Position numbers and translations under genes: made by a program | Notes under the pieces: model-generated | What the model saw: the letters and a program-made list of their open reading frames with translations, nothing else | The model's database searches: none | What the model was told of the DNA's origin: nothing | Shown here: piece after piece, positions 1,613-36,929 of the stretch | Layout: each line of letters begins with the position of its first letter | Numbering within the stretch: the stretch's first letter is position 1 | Source: an uncultured Spirochaeta sp. | Lineage (GTDB): Bacteria > Spirochaetota > Spirochaetia > DTKZ01 | Assembly (NCBI GenBank): GCA_937140905.1 | Contig: CAKZQO010000104.1 | Location: 1-37,149, forward strand | Direction of reading: 5' to 3' | Length of the DNA: 37,149 nt

Positions 1613-2761
1613 CTACTCCCAAGGGAAACGTCCTTCTTTCATTACAGGTTCCCAGGTTCCGTTGTGGGTCTTCGCATAGATGGTCGGTTTACTAACCAAC
1701 CCATCCAGATGAATCAAAGAAGGAGCATCCTCATCGTAGTTGGATCCAATGGCGAAGTGACAGGTTCCGTATACTTTCTCATCTTCCAGCATGTTCCCCG
1801 TTATCCGAGCCTGCCGATTCACCCCAATCCCTAGTTCTCCCAAATGACGGGCGTTCTTCGCGTACCGTTCCCCTTCGTCCTTTTTTAGGTTTCCCTCCGC
1901 TTCGTATCTTCGCGCTCGAATAGAGGCCTCGTTCAAGGTTTGTTCCAGAGCTTTAGCCTCTTCACCTCCTTCTATGGAGACAACGAATCCCTTTTCCAAG
2001 GTAACTCGGATGGGTGTGTTGATCCGGATCACTCCACCCGCTAACGCGATGCTACCGTCGAACACGATAGTACCTTCAGCAGAACCCACCACAGGTGAAA
2101 TGAAAGTTTCTCCCGCGGGCAGGTTTCCCCCTGTGCCTGGTCGCGAGAAGTCACCGTCGTCCGTAAAAGAACTTCTTCCTTTCGTGTCGATCCGAACCTT
2201 CGTTCCCTTTGGATTCTCTATTTCCAGGGAAACGGATTGATCCAGTAGGTTTTTTAAGGTTTCACAATCCTGTTTCATCCGTTGGTAGTCTACCGGCACA
2301 GTCCGAATGAAACAGTCCACCGTGATCCCGGGACTCCAAAAACTCCGTATCTTTTTCACTCCATGGAGTAGATAGTGGAGAGTGCTGTCGTAGGATTTTC
2401 CATCTATCAGGTAGGGTTCCTTGATAGCCCGCCTGTCCTTTCCCATCTTCTCTGCGCTTAGGGAAATCACCACATTTGGTTCTGTTGCGATAGCGGCAGT
2501 GACTTCATCTTCACAGAAATCGAACTGAGTCTTTCTCGGTTGGAACAGTAGCACGGGAACCGCTCCAACCTCCCGTACCGCATCATGCACGGCAAAGGCT
2601 ATGGTGGCTACCTCCCGCACAGGATTGGTAACGATCAATACTCGTTCGCCTTCCCGAACCTTGAGGGATTCGATTACCGCTACGCGTGCCGCGTGCTCTA
2701 ATCTTTGTTCCCGGAATAGAAATTCACCAAACCCTTGATCGAACTGTTTCTCCATGCTCAT
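1613..2761 (-). CDS. M29-family metallo-aminopeptidase
   Basis: A 382-residue cytoplasmic metallopeptidase of family M29 (AmpS/AmpT/aminopeptidase II, 'thermophilic metalloprotease'). The N-terminal half has the family's nucleotide-fold-like repeats (ERVLIVTNPV, VGAVPVLLF); the C-terminal half carries the expected metal ligands in order: E218 (PAGE), E309 (GELGIG), H335 (GTCHFAIGS), H351 and D353 (IHLDG). Full family length. The ATG at 2761 gives MSMEKQ; no Shine-Dalgarno site precedes it, but a near-consensus promoter ends 6 nt upstream, so the mRNA is probably leaderless. A second ATG two codons on would be an alternative. It converges on trxA and is divergent from leuS. Confidence 0.88.
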   Translation of the reverse strand: MSMEKQFDQGFGEFLFREQRLEHAARVAVIESLKVREGERVLIVTNPVREVATIAFAVHDAVREVGAVPVLLFQPRKTQFDFCEDEVTAAIATEPNVVISLSAEKMGKDRRAIKEPYLIDGKSYDSTLHYLLHGVKKIRSFWSPGITVDCFIRTVPVDYQRMKQDCETLKNLLDQSVSLEIENPKGTKVRIDTKGRSSFTDDGDFSRPGTGGNLPAGETFISPVVGSAEGTIVFDGSIALAGGVIRINTPIRVTLEKGFVVSIEGGEEAKALEQTLNEASIRARRYEAEGNLKKDEGERYAKNARHLGELGIGVNRQARITGNMLEDEKVYGTCHFAIGSNYDEDAPSLIHLDGLVSKPTIYAKTHNGTWEPVMKEGRFPWE

Positions 2762-2767
2762 GGGCCG

Positions 2768-2796
2768 ATTATAGAGAACCGATCCTGAGGGAACAA
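2768..2796 (-). promoter_or_regulatory. Promoter abutting the aminopeptidase start (leaderless)
   Basis: On the minus strand TTGTTC (2791-2796), 17 bp, then a perfect TATAAT (2768-2773). Only 6 nt separate the -10 from the ATG at 2761, so transcription starting about 7 nt after the -10 would begin at the start codon itself. Confidence 0.75.
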
Positions 2797-2862
2797 GAGG
2801 AGTGCCTTAGGAGTCCCGTTCTAATACTTTCTGCTTTAAGCGTGAGCCCCAATTTTTAGATC

Positions 2863-2880
2863 GATTCAATCATTTGAATC
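2863..2880. promoter_or_regulatory. Operator-like dyad upstream of the small RNA
   Basis: GATTCAA-TCAT-TTGAATC is a perfect inverted repeat with 7-bp arms and a 4-nt spacer. It ends 6 bp before the TTGACA at 2887, the usual position of an activator or repressor site. The cognate regulator is unknown. Confidence 0.5.
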
Positions 2881-2886
2881 TGATAC

Positions 2887-2915
2887 TTGACAATATTTTC
2901 GAAAATCTGTAAAAA
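2887..2915 (+). promoter_or_regulatory. Predicted promoter of the twin-hairpin RNA
   Basis: A perfect TTGACA (2887-2892), 17 bp, TAAAAA (2910-2915, 4 of 6 matches). The spacer contains the 12-bp perfect palindrome ATTTTCGAAAAT at 2895-2906, which is placed like a repressor operator. Transcription would begin near 2922. The -10 is the weak point, so the exact 5' end is uncertain. Confidence 0.5.
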
Positions 2916-2921
2916 ATGGAT

Positions 2922-3108
2922 GATTTTCCCTGTAACTAGGGATGTAAAACGTTGTTCTTACATATAGAAAAGATATTCATTTCGAGTTGGAAATAGCGCT
3001 TTCCAGGTTTTCACCTCCTTTCCTGGAAGCCTTCAGATGATGTGAATCATCGCATTCCTGTACGTTGCCCTTCAGGTTTCTACCTCCTTTCCTGAAGGGC
3101 TTTTTTTT
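2922..3108 (+). ncRNA. Putative small RNA with twin anti-Shine-Dalgarno hairpin loops
   Basis: This gene-free stretch between the aminopeptidase and leuS encodes an apparent structured RNA of about 187 nt. It has an ATGTAA/TTACAT dyad (2942-2963) and hairpin 1 (2998-3030: nine pairs, one bulge). A small 6-bp stem capped by GTGA, a GNRA-type tetraloop, follows at 3036-3051. Hairpin 2 (3067-3100: ten perfect pairs) ends in eight T. The two large hairpins have loops of exactly 14 nt that differ at only two positions, and both contain ACCTCCTTT; loop 1 matches the 3' end of 16S rRNA (UCACCUCCUUUC in most bacteria) over 12 nt. The loops could therefore pair with ribosome-binding sites. No leucine-rich leader peptide or T-box element is present, and leuS has its own promoter downstream, so I favour an independent trans-acting RNA over an attenuator. 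The family is unknown to me. Confidence 0.65.
3067..3108 (+). terminator. Intrinsic terminator forming the 3' hairpin of the small RNA
   Basis: GCCCTTCAGG (3067-3076) pairs perfectly with CCTGAAGGGC (3091-3100) around a 14-nt loop, followed by eight T (3101-3108). It lies upstream of the leuS promoter on the same strand. Confidence 0.92.
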
Positions 3109-3149
3109 GCTTCAATCCCCGCAAGCCCACAAGCTTGAGGGTACTAAGC

Positions 3150-3178
3150 TTGCTATTAACATCCCTTTTAGATATCAT
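3150..3178 (+). promoter_or_regulatory. leuS promoter abutting the start codon (leaderless)
   Basis: TTGCTA (3150-3155), 17 bp, TATCAT (3173-3178, 5 of 6 matches). The -10 ends 8 nt before the leuS ATG and there is no SD sequence. Two AAGCTT-centred palindromes, CAAGCTTG at 3130-3137 and AAGCTTG at 3146-3152, flank and overlap the -35 and could be an operator. Confidence 0.7.
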
Positions 3179-3186
3179 ACCTACCT

Positions 3187-5601
3187 ATGAGCAAATACCC
3201 TTTTACTGAAATCGAACGTAAATGGCAAACGTACTGGGAAACCCACAAGACGTTTCGTACGGTGGAGGATCCCAGCATACCCAAAGAAAAACGTCGGTAT
3301 GTTCTAGATATGTTCCCCTACCCTTCCGCCGCAGGGCTCCATGTTGGTCACCCAGAAGGGTATACAGCCACCGATATTTACTGTCGCTTCCTAAGGATGA
3401 AAGGCTACCATGTTCTGCATCCCATGGGATTCGATTCCTTTGGGCTTCCTGCAGAGAACTATGCTATTAAAACAGGAACCCATCCGAAAACGACCACGGA
3501 AAAGAACATCGCCCGGTTCCGACAACAGATCAAGGCCTTGGGATTTTCGTACGATTGGGATCGGGAGATTTCCACTCACCAGCCGGAATACTACAAATGG
3601 ACCCAATGGATCTTCCTGAAACTGTTCGAACAGGGGCTGGCATACGAAGCGGAAGTTCCCATCAACTGGTGTCCCTCTTGTAAAACCGGACTTGCAAACG
3701 AGGAAGTGAAAGATGGGGGGTGCGACCGATGCGGAACCCCTGTGGTGCGCAAGGACATTCGGCAGTGGATGCTCCGGATCACCAAGTACGCGGAGCGGTT
3801 ATTGAAAGATCTGGATCTCTTGGATTGGCCCGAATCCATCAAGCTGATGCAGCGGAACTGGATCGGCCGTAGCGAGGGAGCTAACGTTCATTTTCCCCTG
3901 GAAAAAGGAGAAGGCACCATCGAAGTGTACACCACCCGACCGGATACCCTCTTTGGCGCTACCTACATGGTTCTGGCACCCGAGCATCCCCTGGTAGACC
4001 GGATCACCACTCCAGAGCAGAAAAAGGCTGTGGAGGAATACAAGGAAAGTGCTCGACGGAAGTCGGACCTGGAGAGAACCGATCTCGCCAAGGAGAAAAC
4101 CGGCGTATTCACCGGAGCTTACGCGATAAATCCGGTAAATAATGAAAGAATCCCTGTTTGGATTTCGGACTACATCCTGATTTCCTATGGGACAGGGGCC
4201 ATCATGGCGGTTCCGGCTCACGACGAACGGGACTGGGACTTTGCCAAGAAGTACAACCTGCCTATCGTGCAAGTGGTGTCGAAGGATGGTACCCTATACC
4301 CCATGGATCACGCGGAAACCGAGGATGGTATCGCTGTCAACTCAGGCCCCTTCAACGGCCTGCCTACCGCCGAATTTAAGAAGCGAATCATTCAGTGGCT
4401 GGAAGAACGAGGCTTGGGGAAACGGGCGGTGAACTATAAGCTTCGCGATTGGGTCTTCTCCCGGCAGCGGTACTGGGGAGAACCCATACCCCTCGTTCAT
4501 TGCCCTGCCTGCGGGATCGTACCCCTACCGTACGATCAACTACCCCTTCTCCTCCCCGAGGTAGAAAGCTACGCTCCCACAGGAACGGGGGAATCTCCTC
4601 TTGCGGCAATCACCCACTGGGTTCACACCTCCTGTCCCAAGTGCGGGGGCAAGGCAAAGAGGGAAACCAACACGATGCCCCAATGGGCGGGTTCCTGCTG
4701 GTACTACCTGCGGTACCTGGATCCCCACAATACGAAGGAACTCGCTGCTAAGGACAAGATCGAATACTGGATGCCCGTAGACTTGTACGTAGGGGGGGCC
4801 GAGCACGCCGTGTTACACCTCCTGTACGCCCGGTTCTGGCATAAGGTCCTGTATGATATTGGAGTGGTGAACACTCCCGAACCTTTCATGCGCCTGGTGA
4901 ACCAGGGAATGATTCTGGGCGAGGACGGACAGAAGATGTCCAAGTCCTTGGGGAACGTGATCAACCCCGATGATATCGTTCGAGAGTATGGGGCAGACTC
5001 GATGCGGGTGTACGAGATGTTCATGGGACCCCTCCAGGTAACCAAACCCTGGTCTACCAATGGGCTCATCGGGGTGCATCGGTTCCTCGACCGGATCTGG
5101 CGTTTATCGGAACGAACCCTCACGAACGAACCCCTTCCCCGGGAACTGGAGCGCCTTCTCCATAAAACAATCCGCAAAGTGGCGTTAGACACGGAAAAAT
5201 TGGAGTTCAATACCGCCATCTCGCAGATGATGATCTTCGTGAATGAACTATTCAAACTGGAAACCCTTCCCCGTAAAGCGTGGGAACCCTTCGTACTCCT
5301 CCTCTCCCCCTACGCTCCCCACTTGGCAGAGGAGCTGTGGGAAAAGCTCGGAAACCCGCCTTCGATCTCGAAGGTCCCCTTCCCTAAATGGAACGAAGAA
5401 CTCGCGAAGGACGAGGAAGTAACGATCGTGATCCAAGTGAATGGGAAAGTACGGGCAAAGGTCCAAGCCAATGCGGGCCTTTCCGAGGAAGAGCTGAAAG
5501 ATCTTGCCTTAAATCAACAGAGGATCCAGGATCTGGTAAACGGGAAGACTCCTAAAAAGATCATCACGGTTCCGGATAAGCTGGTGAACATCGTACTCTG
5601 A
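3187..5601 (+). CDS. leuS: Leucyl-tRNA synthetase
   Basis: An 804-residue class Ia synthetase that charges tRNA-Leu in the cytoplasm, of normal bacterial length. H52-V-G-H55 is the HIGH motif and K583-M-S-K-S587 the KMSKS loop. Cysteine pairs typical of the zinc modules are seen at CPSC...CDRC (about 158-182) and CPAC...CPKC. The CP1 editing domain is present with '[22 protein letters not shown]'. The C-terminal '[12 protein letters not shown]' tail is intact. The start is the ATG at 3187; no SD precedes it, and a promoter ends 8 nt upstream, which suggests a leaderless transcript. The next gene starts 4 bp after the stop, so the two are probably co-transcribed. Confidence 0.97.
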
Positions 5602-20026: not shown

Positions 20027-20473
20027 ATGGACATTTCAAAGTATCTTTCTAAAGATTGTATCCTGTTTATCAAGGATACCCATGATAGGGGCCGTGTCCT
20101 CGAACTCTTGATCGAAGCTGCCCACACCGCGGGAAAGGTGAAAGACAAACTGCGGTTCGCCGAGGCAATAGCCGCCCGGGAACTCATAGTCAGCACTGGA
20201 ATTGGTCTAGGGGTTGCGGTACCCCATGCGAAGTTAAAAACGCTAGATTCATTCTTCATCGCCCTTGGGATCATCGAACATGGTGTGGATTGGGAATCCA
20301 TAGACGGACAGCTCGTTCACATCGTGTTCCTCATTGGTGGCCCTGAGGACAACCAGAAAGAGTACCTACATATTCTTGCTCAGATCGTTCAAACAGTAAA
20401 AGACGCAGAGAAAAGAGAAAAACTTCGGAACTCCCGAACCCCCGAACAAGTTCTGTCACTCCTATTGAGCTGA
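20027..20473 (+). CDS. PTS EIIA domain protein (fructose/Ntr type)
   Basis: A 148-residue stand-alone EIIA type-2 domain. The phosphorylatable histidine is H67 in GLGVAVPHAKL, within the standard 'AIAARELIVSTGIGLGVAVPHA' segment; 'VHIVFLIGGPEDNQKEYLHILAQIVQTVKD' follows. No EIIB, EIIC, HPr or EI gene is nearby, so it is more likely a regulatory PtsN-like protein than part of a sugar transporter. It precedes the ABC exporter cluster by 29 bp and may be read through into it. A second EIIA domain is found in the diadenylate cyclase fusion at 25290-26630. Confidence 0.88.
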   Translation: MDISKYLSKDCILFIKDTHDRGRVLELLIEAAHTAGKVKDKLRFAEAIAARELIVSTGIGLGVAVPHAKLKTLDSFFIALGIIEHGVDWESIDGQLVHIVFLIGGPEDNQKEYLHILAQIVQTVKDAEKREKLRNSRTPEQVLSLLLS

Positions 20474-23794: not shown

Positions 23795-23812
23795 CCAATA
23801 CGGGAGGTGGGT

Positions 23813-25303
23813 ATGTCCAGACAAAAGAACCTTATCATTGCGGGTGTTGCCCTTTTGATCCTCATCGGTGGGTACTTTGGGGCAACCGCTTACAAGAAAG
23901 CTCAGATCGATAAACAAGCGGAACAGTACAAGTCTCTTTACATGACGGAGATCGACACGAAAAAGGTGACCCGCCTAGAACTCCCCTTGAAAGGGGTGAT
24001 TCTGGAACGAAAGGGAGAAACCTGGAGTTCCCCCGTCGAAGCTCTAGGGGTACAGTTAGACCAGGAGGAGATCAAGAGTATCCTCTGGTCCCTATGTAAC
24101 ATGCGGTACGAACGGGTAGCCGATGAAAACCCCAAGGATCTGGGGCCCTTTGGACTTGCAAATCCAAAAGCGCGGGTGATTCTGACCCTGGAGGACGGGA
24201 GCAAGGTGGAGCTACTAGGCGGAGAAAAGACGCCTACCGGTATGGGATACTACGGGAAGAAGGCAGGAGAATCGAAGGTCTACATCCTTCCCTCCTATCC
24301 TGGGGAACGGCTCTACGTATCTTTGACAGATTTTCGGGACCGAAAACTCCCGTCCTTCAATCCGGATGAAGTGGAACGCCTGACTCTTGTCCACGGGAAT
24401 ACCCGAATATCGATCGAACCAAAGCCTAGCACGGGAGTGCAGGAATCCTCCTTCACTACCCATATCATCACCTCTCCCTATAAGCTTCCCCGAGGGGTAG
24501 ATTCCCAAGCCTTCAACAAACTGGTCACTTCACTGGGGAAACTCAGGATCAAGGATTTCGTCAGTGACAAACCCACGTCCCTCGCTCAGTATGGTCTAGA
24601 CAAACCTGAGTATGAGATCTACGTGAAGGCTAAAGTGAAGGAAAAGGTAAAGGAAAAAGAAGGGGAAAAGGAAGTGGAAAAGGAGGTAAAGAAAGATGTG
24701 ACTCTGCACCTCCTGATGGGTAAAGAAGCGGCTAAGACCGGTCCAGAGTGGGAAAAGAACCGGGTGTTCGCCAAACTGAAAGATTCCCCCACTGTATTCC
24801 TCATCGAGGACATCCGTTCTGATATTGCCGTAAAACCTTTCGACCTGATCGACAAGTTCGCCTTCATTATCAACATCGACAAAGTAGACAAACTGCAGAT
24901 CGATTATTTAGGCGCCCGCCACATAGGGGAAATCAAACGGGAAAAAGTCACCGTTACGGAAAAGGACAAGGACGGTAAGGAAACCAAGAGGGAAGAAACA
25001 AAGGAAACCTTCCTGTTCGATGGAAAGGAAGTAAAGGCGGAAAAGTTTAAGGACCTGTACCAGAACTGTATCGGGCTAATCATAGAGGCAGAGCTTCCTC
25101 CGGGCGGAAAGGCAGCGGGAAAAGCGGAAGTCACCCTGGAGTTCCATCTGAATGATCCCGCAGGAAAGATCCAACGAGTACAGTACCTACCTTTTAATAG
25201 AGATTTCTACGCCCTTTCCCGGGAAGGGACGGTGGAGTTCCTTGTTTCCAAACGGCAGGTAGAAAAGATTGCGGAGAGTTTGAAAAAAGTTACAGAACCA
25301 TAA
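23813..25303 (+). CDS. DUF4340 protein of the Gld-like exporter cluster
   Basis: A 496-residue protein with an N-terminal signal anchor (KNLIIAGVALLILIGGYFGATAY) and a long extracytoplasmic region built of repeated DUF4340 units (EIDTKKVTRLELPLKGVILERKGETWSSP...; SLAQYGLDKPEYEIYVKA; FNRDFYALSREGTVEFLVSKRQVEKI). DUF4340 proteins are regularly encoded next to GldG. Two strongly charged Lys/Glu tracts (about 275-300 and 385-410) look like surface insertions. A GTG two codons upstream is in frame, but the ATG at 23813 has GGGAGG 5 nt upstream and is preferred. The end overlaps the convergent cyclase gene by 14 bp. Confidence 0.87.
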   Translation: MSRQKNLIIAGVALLILIGGYFGATAYKKAQIDKQAEQYKSLYMTEIDTKKVTRLELPLKGVILERKGETWSSPVEALGVQLDQEEIKSILWSLCNMRYERVADENPKDLGPFGLANPKARVILTLEDGSKVELLGGEKTPTGMGYYGKKAGESKVYILPSYPGERLYVSLTDFRDRKLPSFNPDEVERLTLVHGNTRISIEPKPSTGVQESSFTTHIITSPYKLPRGVDSQAFNKLVTSLGKLRIKDFVSDKPTSLAQYGLDKPEYEIYVKAKVKEKVKEKEGEKEVEKEVKKDVTLHLLMGKEAAKTGPEWEKNRVFAKLKDSPTVFLIEDIRSDIAVKPFDLIDKFAFIINIDKVDKLQIDYLGARHIGEIKREKVTVTEKDKDGKETKREETKETFLFDGKEVKAEKFKDLYQNCIGLIIEAELPPGGKAAGKAEVTLEFHLNDPAGKIQRVQYLPFNRDFYALSREGTVEFLVSKRQVEKIAESLKKVTEP

Positions 25304-26630
25304 TCCTCTCGCCGCTCTTGAAGATACTCACCCGGCGAGTCGATTCAGAGAGCACCACGGCCACCGCCCGACTGACTACTGTAATTGCAGCGGCTGCGGT
25401 GTGCCGAGCTCCTAACCCAGAGGGTAACTCGGCGGGGGGTACTCGAGTTCGAAGGTAAGTACCCGCCGATACGATCACCCCATTCCCACGGATCACGAAC
25501 GCTCCGTCTAGTTTGGAGAGTTCCTTGATCGTTTCCTTCAAACTGGGATCCAGTATGTTCCGGTCCGCTTCGGGATACCCGGCAAAGGGATTGATGATCA
25601 TCTGCTGACAGTGATGCTGCACTTGGTCATAATCCCCTAGGACAAAGATCGTACCCGATGGTTTTCCTTCCCGGCCTTCCTCTGCCAGTTCTCCCGCTAT
25701 TTCTATTACTCGCATCAGTACCTGGTTTTCCAGATCCTGCCCTTCTTTTTCCTTCCCGAACGCAAAGAATACTTTGAACTCGCTACCGACATCCGTCACC
25801 CGCACCGAATCCAGGATTCCAGAGAAGGGAACTCCAAAGATGCTAACCACCCGTTCTTCCTGCCGGAGCAATCCCCTGGAAAGGGCAAAAATGATGGAAA
25901 GCTCTACCTGATTTGCTCGACTTACTCCCTTGAAGGGAATCTGTACCACGGGATGATCGGGGAACTGTTCCCGAATCCTCTCCACCCTACTCACCGCTAC
26001 AAAACAAATTTTTCTAGGCAACTCCTTGGGGAAGAAGTCCAATTCTTCAAGACAATCGGCATGGACAAAAATATGAGAGGCATCGATCTTTTCGGCCAGA
26101 AGCAGCCCCTGTTCCCAGCACGCTTGGGACAAGAAGAATCGCCCTTCCCGGTCCATGGGGAGTTCCTTCTCGGGGTGGGAAAGTTCGGTCCCGGCTTTCC
26201 CTGCGAAAGCCCGGTACGCTTCGATAGGATGGGTGGCAAAAACAATCTGTTCGTACACCTGCGGGGTCTCTAATCGAATCGCTACCTGCCGAAGGACCTG
26301 TAGATGTTCGATTCCATCTCCCACGATCAGAATCAATAGATGAACAGGTCTGTCGTCCGGAGCTCCATAGGGTATCCCTTCTTTACTGACACCGAGAAGG
26401 ATTCTCGAAGGGCCGAACCCCGGTACAATGGCGTGAGGAATAGCAATTCCAGAGGCAATCCATGTGGAAAGAACGGATTCCCTTTCCAGGATCCGTTTCA
26501 ACAACTCATCCGCATCGATGTTCCCATACACTTCAGAAAATTTCTTAGCTAGTTCTTCGAAGGCTCCCTGTTTGGTTCGGCTCTCAATGAAATGCACTCC
26601 TTCGGGAATGCAGTAGTCTCGAAGAAGCAT
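25290..26630 (-). CDS. PTS EIIA - pyruvate-kinase-C-like - diadenylate cyclase (DAC) fusion
   Basis: A 446-residue cytoplasmic fusion. Residues 1-145 are an EIIA type-2 domain with the phosphorylatable H66 in IASGIAIPHAIVPG. Residues about 160-305 form an alpha/beta domain (QACWEQGLLLAEKIDASHIFVHAD...KICFVAVS...) that resembles the pyruvate-kinase C-like domain of archaeal-type DacZ cyclases. Residues about 320-440 are a DisA_N diadenylate cyclase domain: GTIFVLGD, NPFAGY, D375-G-A377 and GLGARH-T with R409-H410-T411, the two catalytic motifs of c-di-AMP synthases. The RHR of many DACs is RHT here. It starts 9 bp after the fumarase gene with a strong GGAGG site, so it is the last gene of the glutamate operon. 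EIIA phosphorylation may control cyclase activity (inference). Confidence 0.88.
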   Translation of the reverse strand: MLLRDYCIPEGVHFIESRTKQGAFEELAKKFSEVYGNIDADELLKRILERESVLSTWIASGIAIPHAIVPGFGPSRILLGVSKEGIPYGAPDDRPVHLLILIVGDGIEHLQVLRQVAIRLETPQVYEQIVFATHPIEAYRAFAGKAGTELSHPEKELPMDREGRFFLSQACWEQGLLLAEKIDASHIFVHADCLEELDFFPKELPRKICFVAVSRVERIREQFPDHPVVQIPFKGVSRANQVELSIIFALSRGLLRQEERVVSIFGVPFSGILDSVRVTDVGSEFKVFFAFGKEKEGQDLENQVLMRVIEIAGELAEEGREGKPSGTIFVLGDYDQVQHHCQQMIINPFAGYPEADRNILDPSLKETIKELSKLDGAFVIRGNGVIVSAGTYLRTRVPPAELPSGLGARHTAAAAITVVSRAVAVVLSESTRRVSIFKSGERIMVL

Positions 26631-26639
26631 CCATCCCTC

Positions 26640-28295
26640 CTAGATAAGGCCGTATAAATCGTTCCCCTTGTCATCGATCAGAATGAAAGCAGGGAAATCC
26701 TTCACCTGAATTAATCGTACCGCTTCCATATCCAGTTCTGGATAATCCAACACTTCAGAAGATACGATGTGTTCTTTGGCCAGTAAAGCGGCAGCTCCCC
26801 CGATCGTTCCAAGGTAGAAGCCTCCATATGTCCGGCATAATTCCGCAGTGCCCTTTGCTCGATTCCCCTTTGCCAGGGTTACGAGGGAAGCTCCCTCCCG
26901 CATAAAGGCTTCCAGGTAGGTGTCCATCCGTTGAGCCGTGGTAGGACCAAAGCTTCCAATGGGGTATCCCGGAGGTGTCTTTGCGGGACCCGCGTAGTAG
27001 ATCCCATACCGGTAGAGGTACTCGGGCAATCCCTTTCCTTCCTTTAACCGTTTGAAGAACCGTGCGTGGGCGATGTCCCGGGCCACCACCAGCGGTCCCG
27101 AAAGAAGGACAAGGCTACCTACCGGGAGCCCGGAAAGATCTTTGCGCACCTCATCGAGACTACGGTTGAGGTCTATTCTTGTACCCAAGGATCGCTCAAC
27201 TCGTTGGGTGACTAGGTCCTTCAATAGGGTGGCTGGATCCTTTTCCAGCTGCTCCAGGAAGACCCCTTCTTTGGTAATTCGACCCAGAATGTTCCGATCC
27301 GCGCTGCAGGAAACCCCGATGCTCACAGGGCAGGCTCCCGCATGCCGGGCTATCCGGATCACTCGGGCATCCAGTGCCAGGTATTTTCCCCCAAACTGAG
27401 CTCCTAATCCTGATTCCTGCGCCAACTGGAGAAGGATACCACTCCATTCTCGATCTAAGTATAGGAGCCCTTTCCCATCTCCCTGTTCGGGCAATCCATC
27501 CAATAGACCGGTAGTGGCCAGTTTCAGTACTTTCAGATTCATCTCGGGGGAAAGGCCTCCGATTACCACCGCCAACCGGTAAGGAGGGCAGGCCGCCGTA
27601 CCCAGCGCTCGGACTTTTTCCCAGAGAAAGGAACGGAGTTTTTCAGGTTCTAGCAATGCCCTCGATTCCTGAAAAAAAGAAGTCTTGTTGGCGCTTCCCG
27701 CTCCTTTGGCCATGAAAAGAAACCGGTATTCTGTTCCTTCCGATGCGTAAATGTCGATTTGAGGCGGGAGGTTCGTTCCTGTGTTCACTTCTTCGAACAT
27801 GGAGAGGGGGGCAATTTGGGAGTACCTGAGGTATCGGGTTCTGTACACTTCTGTGATGCCCTGACAGAGGGCTTCCTCATCTAGGGGGCTCCGTAGGCCA
27901 TTGATTTTTCCCGCATTTCCTTGCCCATCCCCCTCGAGAGGGTGAACCCACACCCGGTCTCCCTTCCAAGCGATCACAGTAGCAGTTCCCGTATCCTGGC
28001 AGAGGGGAAGGAATCCTTCGGATGCCACCACCGCATTCCGGAGAAGGGCTTCGGCCACATACCGATCGTTTCCCGATGCCTCGGGATCGAGAAGGATCTT
28101 TTTCAGTTTCTCCAAAAACGAGGGACGTAGGAAAAAGGAAACATCATGAAAAGCCTCTTCGGCTAGTTTCTGGATCCCTCGAGGATCCACTTCGAGAAAT
28201 GGAGTACCCTCAATCACTTTAGTTCGAACGAAATCCCCTTCCACTCGGCGGTAATTCACACGGGTAAAGGGGTCAATCCCTGGGATTTTATTCAT
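26640..28295 (-). CDS. Class I fumarase, probably mesaconase (mesaconate hydratase)
   Basis: A 551-residue iron-sulfur hydro-lyase with the alpha and beta parts of class I fumarases in one chain. Cluster cysteines lie in LPLCQDTGT, GTAACPPYR and IGVSCSADRNI; the C-terminal part has GSFGPTTAQRMD and the KGNRAKG motif. Class I fumarases often hydrate mesaconate to citramalate, and the position after methylaspartate ammonia-lyase makes that the likely main role; fumarate hydration is not excluded. A longer frame starts at 28331, but the ATG at 28295 is preferred because GGGGAGG lies 10 nt upstream, while the first ATG has no SD. Confidence 0.9.
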   Translation of the reverse strand: MNKIPGIDPFTRVNYRRVEGDFVRTKVIEGTPFLEVDPRGIQKLAEEAFHDVSFFLRPSFLEKLKKILLDPEASGNDRYVAEALLRNAVVASEGFLPLCQDTGTATVIAWKGDRVWVHPLEGDGQGNAGKINGLRSPLDEEALCQGITEVYRTRYLRYSQIAPLSMFEEVNTGTNLPPQIDIYASEGTEYRFLFMAKGAGSANKTSFFQESRALLEPEKLRSFLWEKVRALGTAACPPYRLAVVIGGLSPEMNLKVLKLATTGLLDGLPEQGDGKGLLYLDREWSGILLQLAQESGLGAQFGGKYLALDARVIRIARHAGACPVSIGVSCSADRNILGRITKEGVFLEQLEKDPATLLKDLVTQRVERSLGTRIDLNRSLDEVRKDLSGLPVGSLVLLSGPLVVARDIAHARFFKRLKEGKGLPEYLYRYGIYYAGPAKTPPGYPIGSFGPTTAQRMDTYLEAFMREGASLVTLAKGNRAKGTAELCRTYGGFYLGTIGGAAALLAKEHIVSSEVLDYPELDMEAVRLIQVKDFPAFILIDDKGNDLYGLI

Positions 28296-28337
28296 TTCTA
28301 CCGCGCCTCCCCTTGTGACCGAGTATACCATGAAATG

Positions 28338-29309
28338 TCAATCGGTTTCGAGGAGTTCGTTGATTTCTTCGAAGCCTACGATCTCTTTTCTTCCTACGAT
28401 GCCAACTAAAAGGTACTCTCTGCGAATAGGATCATACTTGTAATTTTTAAGAAGGCGAAAATTCTCGATCTGCCCGGTAGATTTCACGTGGGTTCTCGTG
28501 CCTGTACAGTAGATTTCATCGGTACCGAACCGAATCCTGTCCTCACCCGCAACGGATATTGGAATATCCTGTTGGATGAGTTCCTTCACCCGTTCTTCCA
28601 GTTCCTCAATAGGAATCGTGGGCTTTTCCGGGAAACTGATCACGAATCCGTGTTTCACATCGGAATGGAGAACAGGTGGCGTATAGTGGTAATCCCTCGC
28701 AAGAACATAGCTGGTAAGATCTTCCGCGGAATGGGCCATCAATCGATACTTGATCGTCCGATCCACCACGTCCTTAATCCGGTGGGGAATGGGGCCAAAC
28801 ACGGAGGGCCGGGTTACGATCACTTCTTCCCCAATACCAAAGATGATCTGGGCGTTGTACCCTAACGCCTCGTAGATCAGATCGAAATGCTCCACGATGA
28901 CCCGCCTTCCATGGGATACCACCCTCGAGATCGCCTCGGCTATTTCATACTTCTGTTTAAAGGCCAGTTCGTACCTCACATCGATATGGAAGGTGTGAGG
29001 AGCGAAATAGTCTTCCGGTTCGAAGGAGTAGAGGGGGGTAGGTCGAAGATTCACTCCATCGTCATCGTTGGTCAATTCCAATCCAGGGAATAGACCGCGT
29101 ATCAGGGTGGATTTTCCCGAACCCTCCGCTCCGATGATTCCAATCAATAGATCAGTAGGGTAAAGGTACCTCCGTGCCAGTTCTCCCCCCAGCATGTATA
29201 GCCGCAACCTTCCCCGGGGGGCATAGTAGGTGGCATAGATGAGGGTCTCATGGTAGCCGAACCTTCCAGCAGGCGGTGGGGGTGTTCTATCCATAGTAAT
29301 TTTTATCAC
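28338..29309 (-). CDS. P-loop NTPase fused to an AlaX-like (tRNA_SAD) domain
   Basis: A 323-residue two-domain protein. Residues about 50-185 form a P-loop kinase-like domain with Walker A GAEGSGKST (60-68), then 'LELTNDDDGVN' and 'GRRVIVEHFDLIYEALG'. Residues about 190-315 align in layout with the editing/second additional domain of alanyl-tRNA synthetase and AlaX. H193 starts 'HSAEDLTSYVL' where AlaRS has 'HTATHLL'; 'PIEELEERVKELIQQDIPISV' and 'IYCTGTRTHVKSTGQIENFRLL' match 'CGGTHVxxTGEIxxFxI'. The metal site is altered: the second His is D197, and C268 to H274 spans five residues in place of three. Homologues sit in other glutamate mutase clusters; function is unknown. GTG start overlapping the upstream stop; the exact start is uncertain. 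Confidence 0.75.
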   Translation of the reverse strand: MIKITMDRTPPPPAGRFGYHETLIYATYYAPRGRLRLYMLGGELARRYLYPTDLLIGIIGAEGSGKSTLIRGLFPGLELTNDDDGVNLRPTPLYSFEPEDYFAPHTFHIDVRYELAFKQKYEIAEAISRVVSHGRRVIVEHFDLIYEALGYNAQIIFGIGEEVIVTRPSVFGPIPHRIKDVVDRTIKYRLMAHSAEDLTSYVLARDYHYTPPVLHSDVKHGFVISFPEKPTIPIEELEERVKELIQQDIPISVAGEDRIRFGTDEIYCTGTRTHVKSTGQIENFRLLKNYKYDPIRREYLLVGIVGRKEIVGFEEINELLETD

Positions 29310-29629
29310 TCCTCCGCATCAAACTCGATTCCCAGGAGGGGAGCATGTTGCTGGGCCCCATATATGTCTGTATCTCCGGGGGACCCTGAGGGGCAGGGTC
29401 GTCGGATGGTGATCTTAACCGCAGAAACGGGCTCGAACCAGATGATCCCCAGTATTTCTTCCTGTTTTACCTTATAGAGTTGGGCAATCAATTCCTCGTT
29501 CACGATCTTCCGGTTTTTGAACAGTTCGTACCATTTTCGATCCTTGAACAGAATATCCAACGTCAATTCGTAGGGCCCTGAGTTCTTGGATCGGATAACC
29601 CGGGCTACTTCGAGGATACTTCGCTTCAT
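29306..29629 (-). CDS. DUF4387 protein (AtuA partner)
   Basis: A 107-residue protein matching DUF4387: 'EVARVIRSKNSGPYELTLDILFKDRKWYELFKN' near the start, 'LYKVKQEEILGIIWFEPVSAVKITIRRPCPSGSPGDTDIYGAQQHAPLL' at the end. Such proteins are usually encoded directly after AtuA/DUF1446 proteins, or fused to them as a C-terminal domain, so the two probably form one complex. Both its start and its stop are ATGA-type overlaps with its neighbours. No enzymatic activity is established. Confidence 0.85.
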   Translation of the reverse strand: MKRSILEVARVIRSKNSGPYELTLDILFKDRKWYELFKNRKIVNEELIAQLYKVKQEEILGIIWFEPVSAVKITIRRPCPSGSPGDTDIYGAQQHAPLLGIEFDAEE

Positions 29630-31161
29630 TTCTTTCCTCCCACCTGTTCTACCTTCAAGGGAAATAGACGCTGGCTATTGATCGTCATCAAGTGGTACAG
29701 GGAGAACTCATACACTTCTCCCATGGGAGTATCCGAGGGGGAAAAGGGAAACGCCAGGTTCCCGGCTGTGGCGATCCTTCCCTTATACCCGTAGTGTAAA
29801 AGGGTGGATCGAGTTACACTACATAGGGTGTCCGCGTCCTTCTGGGTTTCCCCTATCGCATCGATCAGGACCCCCAGCTCATGGCTAGAGCTCTGGTTTG
29901 GCTCCCGACTTCCCATTACCCCATTCTTCCCATACAGATGAAAATAGAGGGTCCCCTTGATTCCTTCCTTTTCCATGAGGGATGTAACCTGTGTCTTCAC
30001 TTCCTCTAGGATTCGATCGATCCCCTCGATCATGATGGGATCTCGCACGCCTGCCAGGCATACAGTACGGAAACCAATTGGACGGGCCCCTTCCAGCTTC
30101 ACCGTGTACGGCTGGATTGGTTCGAATCTACTTCCCCGAACCTCTACCCGTCCATTCCCTAATTCAGTGAAGGTTGTCTGCTCCAGATTGATCATCCCTC
30201 CCGGACCATACAGGTGATAGGGATCGGACTTTTCATAGAGAGTGTGGGCCGCGGTAGAAGCGCTGGTAAAGACTCTAGCAGGATTCAAACTTTCCAGAAT
30301 GAAGCAATCCCCCTTCAAAATCCCCAATACGCAATCCGCTCCCGATCCAGGGGTAGCGGCAATGGCAGCACATTCGAGGATCTTTCCCATGTGAAGGGCG
30401 AGCCCGGGATCAAAACCTAGCATGATAGGTAAGGCGGCAAACACTGCGGGATCGAAGCACCGGCCGCATAGGATCACTTCACAACCCCTCCGATGAGCTT
30501 CAATGATGGGCTCCACTCCGAACTGGGCCACAATATAGGGGCTTTCCTCAATGGCACGTCGATTCACCGGAGGAACGAAGGGAAGGGGTTTTAGGGCATC
30601 TTCCTCCAAAGCCTTCAGGACTACGGGTTTGGGAATATCCGCTGGAATGATGCCCAGTTGGAAGGACAATCCTTCCTCCCTGGCGATTTCGAGAATAATC
30701 TCTTTGCACCACTCTAAGTGGGGCAAAGCCCCTGAACCACCCGCTGTACCAATTACCACGGGTATGTTCCGTTTGATTCCCTCCACCAGCATGAACCGGA
30801 GATCTCGTTTGACAAAGGCTCGGTTGGTGAAGGATTTCCCCGATCCCAAGTAAAAGGGTCCTGGGTCTGTAGACCCTCCATCCACAGCGATTAACTGCGG
30901 ATTCCGTTCTATTCCCCGGAGGAAGGATTCCGGCGGAAATCCATACCCTAGAATCGCCGTAGGGCTCAGTACCTTGAATCCATCGGGGAACAATCGATCC
31001 AATTCTTTTGGATCCCGCCTCTCCAGATCCAGGGCTGCATTGAGAAGTCTTTGTTTTCTCCCCTCCATCTCTTCCGTTTCCCGGACTCTAGGAGTTGGTT
31101 TACGGCTGATGATTTTTTTCTTTTTCTTATCTTTTTCCTTCTGATGTTTCTTTTCCTTCAT
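29626..31161 (-). CDS. AtuA / DUF1446 family protein
   Basis: A 511-residue protein of the 'acyclic terpene utilisation' AtuA family. The family domain begins at about residue 62 (FKVLSPTAILGYGFPPESF) and includes 'LIAVDGGSTDPGPFYLGSG' and 'VVIGTAGGSGALPHLEWCKEII'. The first 35 residues are an unusual, very basic stretch (KEKKHQKEKDKKKKK) not expected in this family; the ATGA overlap with the upstream gene and GGAGG nearby support this start, though a later start such as M32 is possible. In AtuA systems the family acts in CoA-linked branched-acid metabolism; here a role on a methyl-branched C5 acid such as mesaconate or citramalate is plausible but inferred. Confidence 0.85.
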   Translation of the reverse strand: MKEKKHQKEKDKKKKKIISRKPTPRVRETEEMEGRKQRLLNAALDLERRDPKELDRLFPDGFKVLSPTAILGYGFPPESFLRGIERNPQLIAVDGGSTDPGPFYLGSGKSFTNRAFVKRDLRFMLVEGIKRNIPVVIGTAGGSGALPHLEWCKEIILEIAREEGLSFQLGIIPADIPKPVVLKALEEDALKPLPFVPPVNRRAIEESPYIVAQFGVEPIIEAHRRGCEVILCGRCFDPAVFAALPIMLGFDPGLALHMGKILECAAIAATPGSGADCVLGILKGDCFILESLNPARVFTSASTAAHTLYEKSDPYHLYGPGGMINLEQTTFTELGNGRVEVRGSRFEPIQPYTVKLEGARPIGFRTVCLAGVRDPIMIEGIDRILEEVKTQVTSLMEKEGIKGTLYFHLYGKNGVMGSREPNQSSSHELGVLIDAIGETQKDADTLCSVTRSTLLHYGYKGRIATAGNLAFPFSPSDTPMGEVYEFSLYHLMTINSQRLFPLKVEQVGGKK

Positions 31162-32411
31162 CCTCGATCCTCCTTCCGAGCCCTTAAAACAGCCAGTGCT
31201 CTCTCCATCTCGTTTCGCACAATGCTAAAGCCCTCGTCGAATCCCATCCCTGGTTTTGCCAGCATCCGATGGGGTTTCGTAGCCAAGGCTATATGGACAC
31301 ATACCCGGGCGGATATATCCGTTTCGTTGCAGGTTCCCCCCTGATACGCCTCCATCCCATGCGCTTTGCAGTACAACACGCTTTCTACAATGTTCTCGAT
31401 TCCCCCTAGATCTGGTGTTTTAATCTGAACCATGTTACAGCACTGGGCATCGGTGAACTCCCGGATATCCTCGTACGTATTACACCATTCGTCCGCCACA
31501 ATCTTTACCCGGGAACCAAGGACGGAAAGCCGCTCCTTTATTTGCCGTAGCACTTCTATCTGTCTTCCCTTTTCTTCCATATCCACGGGACCTTCAATGT
31601 ATAGGGGCAATCCTTTTGCATCCTTCTCCAGACTTGCCAAGTAAGAAGCAATCCGGTCCAGGTTGCCATCGAAGGCGAGTCCCAACGTTCCATATACATC
31701 GAAGTGAAGGGTAGGCCGGTACTCTTCACCTGGACGAAGGGTTTCGATCCGCTGGACGATCCACCGGATATACTCGCGTAGTTTCTCCCCCTCATACCCA
31801 AGTTTATCCGGAATATTATTAATCAACCCATGAGGCAGGACATCCACCTTCTTCAGGATCATCTTGTCCACGTTAGTGTACCGTTCATCCCCCGTTTGTG
31901 CGAAGATAGGGACCCGTTCTGGCACTAAGGGTAAGCCATACTCCTCCGCGATCACCTCGCACATGAGCTTGCGACGAGAGAGAGCACAAGCATCCAAGAG
32001 CGCTTGGGTCAACCCATAGAGGATCGCTGTATGGAGTCTCTGGGGGCCTTGCTCAAAGGGTTTGATCTCTTCCACTAAAGCGCGAAAGGAACTTACTTCT
32101 TTCCCTTCTAAGAAGGGTTTGACTTTCTGCTCCAGAAGGGGAAGGTATTGAGACACGAGAAAAAGCGGATCCCTTCCCCCCGCGCCTGAGTACTGTACGG
32201 CGGCACAGTCTCCCACTGCCAACGATCCATCCTCTAGCATCAGAAGGATCGAGATACTCTGGCCCGCTTCCCGTATGCGAGAGAAACCTGGAGTCACAGG
32301 TTTCCCCACGTACACGAATCCATCGTGACTAGCGCCCGCTTTGATGGCTCGCTGATCGTCGAAGAAGAAGGCAGAAGTACCTGGAGCGAATAGAACCCGC
32401 TTGATTTTCAT
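31158..32411 (-). CDS. mal: Methylaspartate ammonia-lyase
   Basis: A 417-residue enolase-superfamily enzyme that deaminates (2S,3S)-3-methylaspartate to mesaconate. The catalytic residues fall at the same numbers as in the Clostridium tetanomorphum enzyme: K331 (VQIKTPD) and H194 (LPHGL), with Mg ligands D238 (HFDVYG), E273 (IEGP) and D307 (VADEW). It follows glmE by 12 bp with an AAGGAAGG ribosome-binding site, and its stop overlaps the AtuA start. Second step of the methylaspartate route of glutamate fermentation. Confidence 0.97.
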   Translation of the reverse strand: MKIKRVLFAPGTSAFFFDDQRAIKAGASHDGFVYVGKPVTPGFSRIREAGQSISILLMLEDGSLAVGDCAAVQYSGAGGRDPLFLVSQYLPLLEQKVKPFLEGKEVSSFRALVEEIKPFEQGPQRLHTAILYGLTQALLDACALSRRKLMCEVIAEEYGLPLVPERVPIFAQTGDERYTNVDKMILKKVDVLPHGLINNIPDKLGYEGEKLREYIRWIVQRIETLRPGEEYRPTLHFDVYGTLGLAFDGNLDRIASYLASLEKDAKGLPLYIEGPVDMEEKGRQIEVLRQIKERLSVLGSRVKIVADEWCNTYEDIREFTDAQCCNMVQIKTPDLGGIENIVESVLYCKAHGMEAYQGGTCNETDISARVCVHIALATKPHRMLAKPGMGFDEGFSIVRNEMERALAVLRARKEDRG

Positions 32412-32423
32412 CCTGAACCTTCC

Positions 32424-33926
32424 TTAAACTGAACGTTCTTTTACTTCCCTGTGCGCCCTGAATTTGGGACCCAAATTCGACCTTGGTCGCCCCACTAAAT
32501 GTCCCTTACTGATGGCGTAGATATCATCCGTCACCATCTGGAAATTAACCGGCCTGCCTTCCACTTTTGCCCGCTCTTCCAGCCGTTCCCGATGATAATC
32601 CAAAATCTTCTTCCCCAAAGGCACATTACCAGGCTGGAGGATCCGTATATAACCATCATTGTCCCGGGCCGGAAGGATTTTCCCTAAGTTGAATAAGGAT
32701 GGAGCAAACGGAACATCCAGTACTCCCGATTGAAAGGCCCGGATCGTTCCTGTCTCCCAATTCCCTTCTCCCAGGTTCCATACTCTGTCTAGGATTGCTT
32801 TTACCTCTTCGCGGATCAGCTCGCTTTCCCGAGCCAATTCGGCGCTCTCAGGCATCGATTGGTCGGTTAGCATGTGGATCAACTGGCGGGTAGCCCGTAA
32901 CCCCTCCGCATTGGCTTCTTTCGTGGGAATCCCGAACGCTTCATGGGGGGACTTAACGATTACCTTTTCCGCGCCAGAGAACACAGCTGCCACGGTTCCC
33001 CATCCAATCACGGCAAAAGCCTTCGCTTCGTCCTCTGGAAACCCTCCCATCCACTGATGGAATACGATGGTTAGATGGTAATCGGTGAATCCTTCCGAGG
33101 TGAAATACTCCTCTGCCAGCTGACGCAAGGTCCGAACAGCTGCCACATCCTGAATGAGGTTTCCTCCCTGTCCATAACCTAACGTGATGGATTTTACTCC
33201 CTGTGCCAAAGCGAAGAGCCCCTCGAGGATCCCCACCACATGACTGATGCAGGGGGGGACCAAGGTTCCCGTCAATGGGCCAAAGGGCTCCCGATTGATT
33301 CGTACCCCTTCCTCTTCATAGTATCCAACCAGAGCATCCACGTACTTCCAATATTTCAAGGATTGTTCCAGGGGAACCTTCTTCGCATAGGGAATATTGT
33401 ACGAGATTCCCCCACCTTCGAAGCTAGTGAACCCTCCTGCGAGGGTGATTTCCGCCAGTAACCGTGCATCAGGGGTCCCATGTCGTACTTGGACGGGTCT
33501 TGCCACTGCTTCTGTTACCTGCCTGCAGACTTTCACTCCATGGTTCACTGCCGGGAATCCGTTCAATAGAGATTTCCCAGCGGCCAATGACTTTTCAATT
33601 CCTTCCTGAGCCTCCGTGTATCGGTTCTGTCGGGTATAGGCATCGATCGTAGTGGGTAATAGGTCCGCCTCCCCTTCTGTTTCCAGGTATTTCAATAGCC
33701 GGATATGCTCTTCCGGCAAGGCCACTCCTGCCCTTGGTTGGGTAAGAAGCGTTCTCGTTTTCTTTGCCTCTTCCATGGCAAGGGAAAACCGCTTGGATTC
33801 TGGGATCTTTTTCTGGTAAGTAATCGCTTCTCGTAGATCCACCTCCTTCCCTGTGGGCCAACTCGTCAGTACCGTCTCGCGTTCCTGCAGAAACTCCGCC
33901 TTTCGAATACGTTCCAACCCTTTCAT
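32424..33926 (-). CDS. glmE: Glutamate mutase epsilon subunit
   Basis: A 500-residue catalytic subunit (MutE/GlmE) of adenosylcobalamin-dependent glutamate mutase, converting L-glutamate to 3-methylaspartate together with GlmS. Recognised by its TIM-barrel signature segments: '[39 protein letters not shown]', '[70 protein letters not shown]' and '[22 protein letters not shown]'. About 15 residues longer than the clostridial protein. Start joined to the glmL stop as ATGA, with AGGAGGTA as SD (complement of 33929-33936). Confidence 0.96.
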
Positions 33927-35515
33927 CCTACCTCCTGATGCAACACAGTGTTCGACTCAGGAACTAAGGCCTCGATTGCCAATTTAGAAACTTCTTTTGG
34001 ATACTCTTTCGCGTAGTTCCCCAGTAAAGGGAACATATATGAAGCATCTCGATAATAGACGGGATTTGTCGGAACCAATGGAATACGTGTACTGGTGCTG
34101 CATCTCAGATCTAATAGCGATGCATCATCTTCTTTTTTCCTTGATTCGTGCTCACCCTTGGAGACCTTGCGAAACAGAAGCCTGAGAGGTTCACCCAGAT
34201 CAAACAATGAAAGGTAGCCACCGCTTCCTATGATAGTCTTCACAGGCCTTAAGTCTTTTCCGGATTGGAGGAAGATCCTGCCAGCGGGAGTGTAGGTTTC
34301 TTCCAGAACTCCTGCATGTCGAAGGGTGGCAATTGTCACCGCGGATAGGACCAGAAACCGATCAATCCTTTTTTCTCGTTCTGAATCGGGTAGATAGGAG
34401 GTATCCATGGTCACCTTTTCTACATACCGATGGATTTCCTCCTCGGTAGGAGCTTCGCTTAAAACAATTGACTTGGTTTCCATGGATCCCTGCAGCTCCT
34501 GGATGACTTCTCCTCCACTTATCGCATCGTTCCAAATGCATTTAATAAAAAATGGGAAGAAGGGCCGAACCGTATCCCAGAGTGTAGCCGCACTTACCCG
34601 AATTCCCAGATCCCCCTCCACGGTGCGTTTCACCCTTGGTTCTCGAATCCCTTTCAGGACTACCCCCTCCTCTCCCCAGAAAGCTTCCCCCACCGAATAC
34701 ACATCCGTGGTTGCTCCCCCTAGATCGATTACACAGAACCGATCCCATCCCTTCTGATGGGTCCCAATAGCTTCCACCAAATCGAACACAGCCGCGGGAG
34801 TCGGAACAGGTTCTGTTCTGCAGAACTCTTGCACTTGTTTTAACCCTTTCCCTTCCACGATAGTGTCTAGAAAGATCCGTTGGATAGCTTGTCGAGTTTC
34901 CTCGATTCTGATTTCTCCCACACGAGGCATCACATTAGGGGCTACTACAACTCGTTTTCCCTCTAAAATCCTTAAAACTTCCCCTCGAATCGCCGCATTC
35001 CCCGCATAGAGAATCGTTCCCTGGAAGGGAGAGCTCGCTAGTTGCCTGGCGTTCCAGAGAACCGTCTCCTCATTTCCCCCATCCGTACCTCCGGTAAAAA
35101 GAAGGATGTCTGGTGATGCTCCAAGGATGGTTGTTACTTGTTCACTCCTGAGCTTGTAAGATGAATCCGCGACGATTTTACCCCCGGCCGACCAGGCCGC
35201 TAGACGGGCTATCTGTAACGTTAGATCTGGTACTAACCCTACAGCCGCAATTCGTAATCCCCCTTTAGCGGAACTGGAAAAACGAATTCTTGGAGTCTCC
35301 TTTGTTCCTCTTTTGTCCATCCTTCTCGCTGAGAGCCCTTCGTGCGGTAGACCCGTCAACTGGGTGTACACCGTTCCAAATCCCTGCGACAGATCTTCCT
35401 GCGTAGTTGGCGTGATGGACTTTCGAAGGAAGCGTAATCCTTCTTCCGTACGGATGAACAAGGCTCCTTTCGTGTAGGTGGATCCAATGTCAATGCTTAC
35501 CATTTCTTCGTGCAT
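33923..35515 (-). CDS. glmL: Glutamate mutase accessory protein MutL/GlmL
   Basis: A 530-residue actin-fold ATPase of the MutL family, thought to reactivate or protect the mutase by exchanging damaged cobalamin. Motifs: '[16 protein letters not shown]' (phosphate 1 loop), '[23 protein letters not shown]', '[20 protein letters not shown]' (phosphate 2 loop) and '[12 protein letters not shown]'. It lies between glmS and glmE, the usual order. The ATG at 35515 has AGGA 5 nt upstream and overlaps glmS by 26 bp; an internal ATG at 35503 is less well supported. Confidence 0.95.
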
Positions 35516-35936
35516 GAATGTCCTGCTCCAGTAATCGGGCTACTTCTTCCAGGTCCACATCCGGTGGGAATACCCGATCGAACCCCATCCGTTTGAATTT
35601 TTCTTCTACTTCCGAAAAGGGGGTTTTCCCTACCACCAGATTCCCGCCCACGTAGAGGATGATATCCTCTATCCCTCGTTCCACGCATCGATCCCGAAAT
35701 CCCTGACAATCGATCAGACCATGTCCATATAGAGAAGATACCAGGATGGCATCGGCTGCAGTCTCGATGGCAGCATCAATAAACTCGTCCTGGCTAACCA
35801 TGACCCCTAGGTTGATTACCTGGAATCCCTTCTCGTTAAAAAATACTTCCAAAATCTTGTTTCCCACCGAATGGCAATCGTACCCAATGACTCCCAGAAC
35901 GATTTTCCCTTTCGAGGTGTTGCCACTACTACTCAT
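35490..35936 (-). CDS. glmS: Glutamate mutase sigma (cobalamin-binding) subunit
   Basis: A 148-residue B12-binding subunit. The base-off/His-on motif D-x-H-x-x-G reads GYDCHSVG with H22 as cobalt ligand; '[19 protein letters not shown]' and '[11 protein letters not shown]' complete the Rossmann-like fold. The start is set at the ATG 35936, which overlaps the GntR stop as ATGA and has GAGGTG 6 nt upstream; a GTG two codons earlier is less likely. The second catalytic gene, glmE, follows after glmL. Confidence 0.96.
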
Positions 35937-36916
35937 TTCCACACCTCTTTAATCCGCTCTTCCAAGTGTAGTAACGATCCTCGCTCGATCCGGTACTCAA
36001 ACTGTATAGTCTTTCCCCCTTCCTCTCGGAACCGTTGGAATAAAGCTTTGTTCTCTTTACTAACTTGAAAGGAGTATCCAGGCGGGATGATGACTACATC
36101 CTTTCCTTTAACAAACTCCATTACATCCGTTTCCCCACCTATCAGCAAGGTCTCTATCCGTTTGGGGGTGATACGAAGTTCCTTCAGTTTATTCTGGATA
36201 ATTTGAGAAAATGTTTTACTTTCGCACACGATCCCTACGGTATCATCAGGCCCAATGTTCCCTAGCTCCAGGATCGTTTCCGGACTTGGTGACACCGCAA
36301 CTTGAACGATCCGTTCTTTCAAGGAAGGAGCAGCCTGGACCAGATCCCCGTAATGGGTAGAGGTCACAATGATGAGCTTGAAGGGTGACAAGCGAGAAAT
36401 CAAAGAAGGGTTTTCTAAGATCTCGTGAAGAAGAAATTTTTTCAAATCGATCCCTCGCATATAGGCCAGTTGCTTATGGAACATATCGAGGGACTCAGAA
36501 TTGCAGTCCACCGCCGCCACATGGAAAGTTTCTTTCTTTTCCAAACGTTCCAGCAGGCTGATATGAATGAGGGTTTCGATTTCTCGAGGAGTAAAACGCA
36601 TCCGTTCCAGTTCATCCAATAAACGGCCGATTTGAAGCAAGGCCCTTTCTTTCCTTCCTGCTTCTGCCGGCTCTAAAATCCCAATCACGAAGGTACCTTG
36701 CCCTCTCCGTACTTCTATGATCCCTTCACGGGATAGCTCTTCATACGCTTTTTTTACGGTACCCCGAGCAAGGTGTAGCTCCTCGCTCAATTCACGTTCT
36801 GAGGGAAGGCGACTACCCTCCGGAAGTTTGCCTTCCCGAACTAACCGCAAGATCTGTTCTACAATCTGACGAAACAGAGGCACAGGACTTTTAGGATCCA
36901 GCTGTATTGGAATCAT
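35933..36916 (-). CDS. GntR-family regulator of the glutamate operon
   Basis: A 327-residue regulator, first gene of the operon. The N-terminal winged helix is typical ([66 protein letters not shown]). The C-terminal part of about 215 residues looks like a periplasmic-binding-protein-type effector domain ([48 protein letters not shown]), different from the FadR and UTRA types. The ligand is unknown; glutamate or a pathway intermediate is a reasonable guess. The start at 36916 is preferred over the ATG at 36922 because AGAGG lies 6 nt before it. Autoregulation is likely, from the dyad overlapping its promoter. Confidence 0.9.
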
Positions 36917-36929
36917 ATCCATCCTCTTT

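Follow-up and report, generated by a model that had tools for sequence, protein, structure and literature searches.

The window analysed here, a stretch of 37,149 nucleotides of spirochaetal DNA, carries on its minus strand a single ORF of 446 aa (25290..26630), which starts with an ATG at 26630 and is preceded, 5 nt before this codon, by a Shine-Dalgarno motif (GGAGG, 26636..26640, minus strand) that overlaps the stop codon of the gene upstream. Judging from the ORF, its domains and its relatives, the product is a fusion of three parts, hereafter EIIA-DacZ. The first part is a PTS EIIA type-2 domain (residues 16-142, 26205..26585), recognised by both Pfam (PF00359) and Foldseek, with the phosphoacceptor H66 at 26433-26435 and a second histidine, H109, at 26304-26306. 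It is followed by a middle domain (residues 159-300, 25731..26156) that resembles the C-terminal domain of pyruvate kinase (PK_C-like) and is a probable sensor of the DacZ_P type, as indicated by AlphaFold2, Foldseek, profile searches and the DacZ_P matches of its relatives. The last part is a diadenylate cyclase (DAC) domain (residues 316-441, 25308..25685; Pfam PF02457 and Foldseek) with the motifs GREG (319-322), DGA (375-377), RH (409-410) and SE (428-429). No membrane-anchor family was detected in the protein with Pfam or NCBIfam, and EIIA-DacZ is probably soluble. The 3′ end of its gene overlaps the 3′ end of a convergent gene (23807-25303) by 14 nt (25290-25303), an overlap that is kept in loci L033, L034 and L036.

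Pfam matches and spacing place EIIA-DacZ at the end of an operon for the methylaspartate route of glutamate degradation, which lies on the minus strand of the window. From its head, this operon comprises a GntR-type regulator (35933..36922, Pfam GntR, 4.9e-17), a B12-binding subunit (35490-35942), MutL (33923-35515), glutamate mutase E (32424-33926), methylaspartate ammonia-lyase (31158-32411), AtuA (29626-31161), DUF4387 (29306-29629), a P-loop protein with the motif GAEGSGKST (28338-29309) and, 9 nt upstream of EIIA-DacZ, a hydratase of the class I fumarase/mesaconase type (26640..28331, Pfam Fumerase and Fumerase_C). The AtuA-family and DUF4387 genes (29306-31161) thus lie inside an operon of glutamate mutase and methylaspartate ammonia-lyase. 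The P-loop protein has no Pfam or NCBIfam match, and its identity between congeners (95-97%) is above that of most operon neighbours. The order of the operon is kept in two congeners (L037 and L086) as far as their contigs reach; in a third one (L088) the P-loop gene, and not the fumarase, stands directly upstream of EIIA-DacZ, and in a second genus of the host family (L089) the fumarase gene alone is found upstream.

The methylaspartate operon was seen beside EIIA-DacZ only in the host genus; elsewhere the neighbours vary, and no general operon partner emerged among the neighbourhoods of 75 loci. At locus L140, a 980-aa protein of the glutamate dehydrogenase type (2213-5155) is encoded 3 nt upstream of EIIA-DacZ, and this gene is absent at the loci of the family-mates examined. 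At L048 (7891-13833), the gene of a DacZ protein lacking the EIIA domain has a class III nucleotidyl cyclase on one side and genes of the 2-hydroxyglutaryl-CoA dehydratase type on the other. Together with the operon of the host genus, these two loci hint at a functional link to glutamate catabolism, which is taken as a hint only because the L140 arrangement is not common to its family-mates and because the category was chosen post hoc. Two further neighbourhoods are of interest in their own right. In L112, a RelA/SpoT-domain protein with TPR repeats (934-2196) lies downstream of EIIA-DacZ and overlaps it by 4 nt, which suggests a joint operon for (p)ppGpp and c-di-AMP, and in L142 the gene of a DHH-family protein (300-2011) shares 4 nt with a short gene that encodes DAC alone, a possible pair of hydrolase and cyclase.

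The initial annotation had read in this ORF an intact EIIA type-2 domain with H66 and an intact DAC domain with the motifs DGA and RHT (409-411), and had suggested a domain search as a check. Both domains exceed their Pfam cut-offs, PTS_EIIA_2 with 70 bits against 27 (E 2.7e-19) and DAC with 70.3 bits against 27 (E 1.4e-19), and the histidine and the two motifs lie where they had been placed. In the predicted structure, the best Foldseek matches of the EIIA part are IIA-Ntr proteins (1a6j, TM by target 0.87). The cut-offs of the PtsN (IIA-Ntr) equivalog models in NCBIfam are not reached, with 44.4 against 138.7 bits for TIGR01419 and 25.1 against 221 bits for NF008145. Outside the host family, the EIIA domain shares only 20-35% identity with that of the window protein, and H66 is invariant in all 68 members of the family that bear this domain; H109 is kept in 59 of them and replaced by N, Q or Y in the other 9.

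EIIA domains also occur in other proteins around these loci. In the window, a second, stand-alone EIIA type-2 protein of 115 bits is encoded on the plus strand (20027-20473), directly preceding an operon for a GldA/GldF/GldG-like ABC transporter that is convergent to the cyclase gene. A fusion of a Na+/H+ exchanger with EIIA (L044, 6353-8182) and another of a glycosyltransferase with EIIA (L116, 8470-10014) were found near DacZ genes.

The DAC part of the predicted structure matches those of DisA and CdaA, and residues D375, G376, A377, R409 and H410, as well as the GREG motif, are present in all 75 family proteins extracted. The CdaA motif G-T-R-H-R aligns with G-A-R-H-T in the window protein, its last residue being variable across the family. 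Among the NCBIfam models for DAC proteins, the best score is that of DacZ (NF041371, residues 224-444, E 5.5e-37), with 127.6 bits, so far below the equivalog cut-off of 430 that the protein is not an equivalog of haloarchaeal DacZ; the models of CdaA, DisA, CdaS and CdaM reach 24.6-27.7 bits against cut-offs of 188.8-225. For the middle domain, which had been called DacZ-like, both fold and relatives bear the label out, whereas the window protein's own match to DacZ_P in Pfam is under the cut-off (E 0.037). Matches to DacZ_P at E up to 0.1 occur in 10 of 18 aligned members, the best of them at 8.8e-14, and a profile of the domain searched against the PDB has pyruvate kinase as its best match (E 0.0048). 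A structural prediction, which the initial annotation had also proposed, gives the fold of the pyruvate kinase C-terminal domain: residues 159-300 are modelled by AlphaFold2 with a pLDDT of 87.9, and all 50 best Foldseek matches in the PDB are pyruvate kinases (TM by query 0.49-0.64). The full-length model (mean pLDDT 82, pTM 0.54) has well-modelled domains, while its pTM means that their arrangement, and hence the route of any regulation, is not predicted.

DacZ and DacY/CdaZ cyclases are described as having in common an N-terminal domain with the fold of the pyruvate kinase C-terminal domain (PMC6741144). The middle domain agrees with this published fold, and the catalytic core is therefore of the DacZ type. 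The list of known bacterial classes against which the protein had originally been set (DisA, CdaA, CdaS and CdaM) was incomplete, since it left out DacZ/CdaZ, where this core belongs. On the basis of sequence and predicted fold, the window protein is an EIIA-extended DacZ and not a cyclase outside all classes, the apparent novelty being the EIIA domain in front of a DacZ-type core.

With regard to its distribution, strong matches in a sample of 393 genomes of the phylum revealed a DacZ-type protein in 16 genomes, 13 of them with EIIA, and a search with the family alignment found the family in 75 of the 395 genomes sampled from the host's class, spread over 38 of 133 genera. From these searches, 75 proteins were extracted for domain and motif counts. 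The 68 with an EIIA domain come from 24 Spirochaetota family labels plus one PVC-labelled contig of a MAG (L035), which may be misbinned; the remaining 7 are three EIIA-less DacZ proteins, two short DAC-only proteins, one interrupted by a stop and one at a contig end. The occurrence of EIIA-less DacZ proteins in the phylum (L012, L016 and L018) indicates that the fold does not depend on EIIA. A DAC-domain tree of 18 proteins has a branch (support 81/73) that separates the EIIA-bearing members from the rest, and long branches lie close to it. In the EIIA tree, the fused domains group separately from the stand-alone domains, and a single clade for them is not rejected (p-AU 0.41). These trees would fit one old fusion of EIIA, without proving a single origin. 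In the comparison of the host with two congeners, the gene as a whole has a dN/dS of about 0.03, with 0.025-0.064 for EIIA and 0.003-0.013 for DAC. No part of the protein is more conserved than DAC, and purifying selection acts strongly on all three domains. A chance or frame artefact is ruled out by this low dN/dS and by the 67 further proteins with the same fusion.

The host genome encodes one EI, one HPr and one HPr kinase adjoining HPr, and PTS_EIIC (PF02378), the one EIIC family searched, was found neither in the host nor in its congener, so the host PTS looks regulatory. A sugar-uptake PTS was discarded as the input for the same reason. The host has in addition a separate DAC protein of CdaA size (275-aa frame), TrkA/TrkH- and KtrA/KtrB-like K+ systems, and no detected c-di-AMP hydrolase of the PgpH type (7TMR-HDED). 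Two DAC proteins were found in 14 of the 16 holders tested; in the other genomes, G008 and G003, the DacZ-type protein is the only DAC detected.

In the PTS, phosphate passes from phosphoenolpyruvate (PEP) through EI and HPr to EIIA. The reading that we consider probable, with some reserve, is that EIIA-DacZ is a cyclase of the DacZ type in which phosphorylation of H66, via EI and HPr, governs the output. Phosphate from PEP would reach H66 by way of EI and HPr, and whether EIIA is phosphorylated, jointly with what the PK_C-like domain binds, would determine how readily DAC domains from adjacent subunits come together; once facing each other, these would join two ATP molecules into c-di-AMP. 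For catalysis, two DAC domains loaded with ATP must lie face to face (as cited in PMC6741144), so that any domain able to shift the assembly could act as a switch. Along this route, c-di-AMP levels would be governed by PEP/pyruvate or nitrogen status, on top of what a separate CdaA supplies. The parts of this reading differ in strength: motif conservation argues strongly for cyclase activity, phosphorylation of H66 is likewise strongly suggested, its coupling to the cyclase moderately so, and the ligand of the PK_C-like domain can be proposed only weakly. The original idea that the protein joins the PTS relay to c-di-AMP synthesis stands insofar as a phosphorylatable EIIA sits on an apparently intact DAC domain and PTS control is plausible in a host with EI, HPr and HPr kinase and no detected EIIC. 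Sugar status, which had been put forward as one of its inputs, is unlikely to be the main one, and the missing EIIC makes PEP/pyruvate or nitrogen status the better guess.

The signal could also run in the opposite direction, with the DAC part, or c-di-AMP bound in it, reporting to EIIA, whose phosphorylation or partner binding would then control, for example, K+ transport in the manner of PtsN. IIA-Ntr acts through partner binding, and stand-alone PtsN controls K+ transport; the closeness of the EIIA fold to IIA-Ntr and the K+ systems of the host speak for this reversal. However, the retention of the catalytic residues in every extracted protein and the conservation of DAC above the rest of the chain argue that catalysis is the output being kept, which leaves reverse signalling unlikely. 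Alternatively, EIIA could be a docking or oligomerisation module whose H66 is phosphorylated only incidentally or not at all, as the existence of the core without EIIA and the loss of the second histidine in some members would allow; docking, however, would not need a histidine that stays invariant while the rest of the domain diverges to such low identity, and we regard this explanation as improbable. That the DAC domain has lost c-di-AMP synthesis and senses ATP or c-di-AMP instead, with CdaA as the sole synthase, would suit the second DAC of most holders, of CdaA size in the host, and the unconserved third residue of the RHR motif, but is very improbable given invariant DGA, RH and GREG motifs, two genomes in which no other DAC was detected and the report that DacZ is an essential cyclase in Haloferax volcanii (PMC6741144).

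Should the H66-controlled cyclase be real, a single polypeptide would connect the PTS with c-di-AMP in many spirochaetes. To our knowledge, the control of diadenylate cyclases is largely an open question in c-di-AMP biology, and here the protein itself names a candidate input, a phosphoacceptor domain of the PTS whose chain of phosphodonors is known. PTS and c-di-AMP both affect K+ and nitrogen balance. The proposed link is directly testable, since the transfer between EI, HPr and EIIA can be rebuilt with purified proteins. A bolder version would make EIIA-DacZ an undescribed and widespread class of bacterial c-di-AMP synthases that senses the PEP-pyruvate node twice, through PEP-derived phosphate on EIIA and through a metabolite on the pyruvate-kinase-like domain, turning spirochaetal c-di-AMP into a metabolic signal alongside a separate CdaA; we hold this as a tentative idea that is more doubtful than the simple PTS control. 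In the open-access literature no study of an EIIA-DAC fusion was found, and the dedicated census of DAC architectures (Galperin 2023), which lay outside this search, may already list it. Pfam names several families of DacZ sensors, an indication that DacZ diversity is already curated, and for these two reasons the protein is filed as a variant of DacZ cyclases and no new class is claimed.

Compared with known systems, EIIA-DacZ shares with CdaA, DisA, CdaS and CdaM the catalytic DAC domain and its DGA and RH motifs, and these four classes are not known to carry an EIIA or PK_C-like domain. With PtsN (IIA-Ntr) and the EIIA domains of the fructose/mannitol type it has in common a like fold, H66 in an xPH motif and usually a second histidine, but it differs from PtsN and FruA in being joined to a cyclase and in scoring below the cut-offs of both models. 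The exchanger-EIIA protein of L044 resembles it in using EIIA as the control domain of a non-PTS protein, although its output is transport and that of EIIA-DacZ would be the synthesis of a second messenger. Haloarchaeal DacZ is encoded in an operon with an mscS gene, whereas no MscS gene was seen among the glutamate-degradation neighbours of the host operon. Finally, the DacZ/DacY (CdaZ) cyclases of euryarchaea and some bacteria are alike in having a PK_C-like domain before DAC and the DGA motif, and it is the extra N-terminal EIIA domain, with its intact phosphoacceptor histidine, that sets EIIA-DacZ apart from them.
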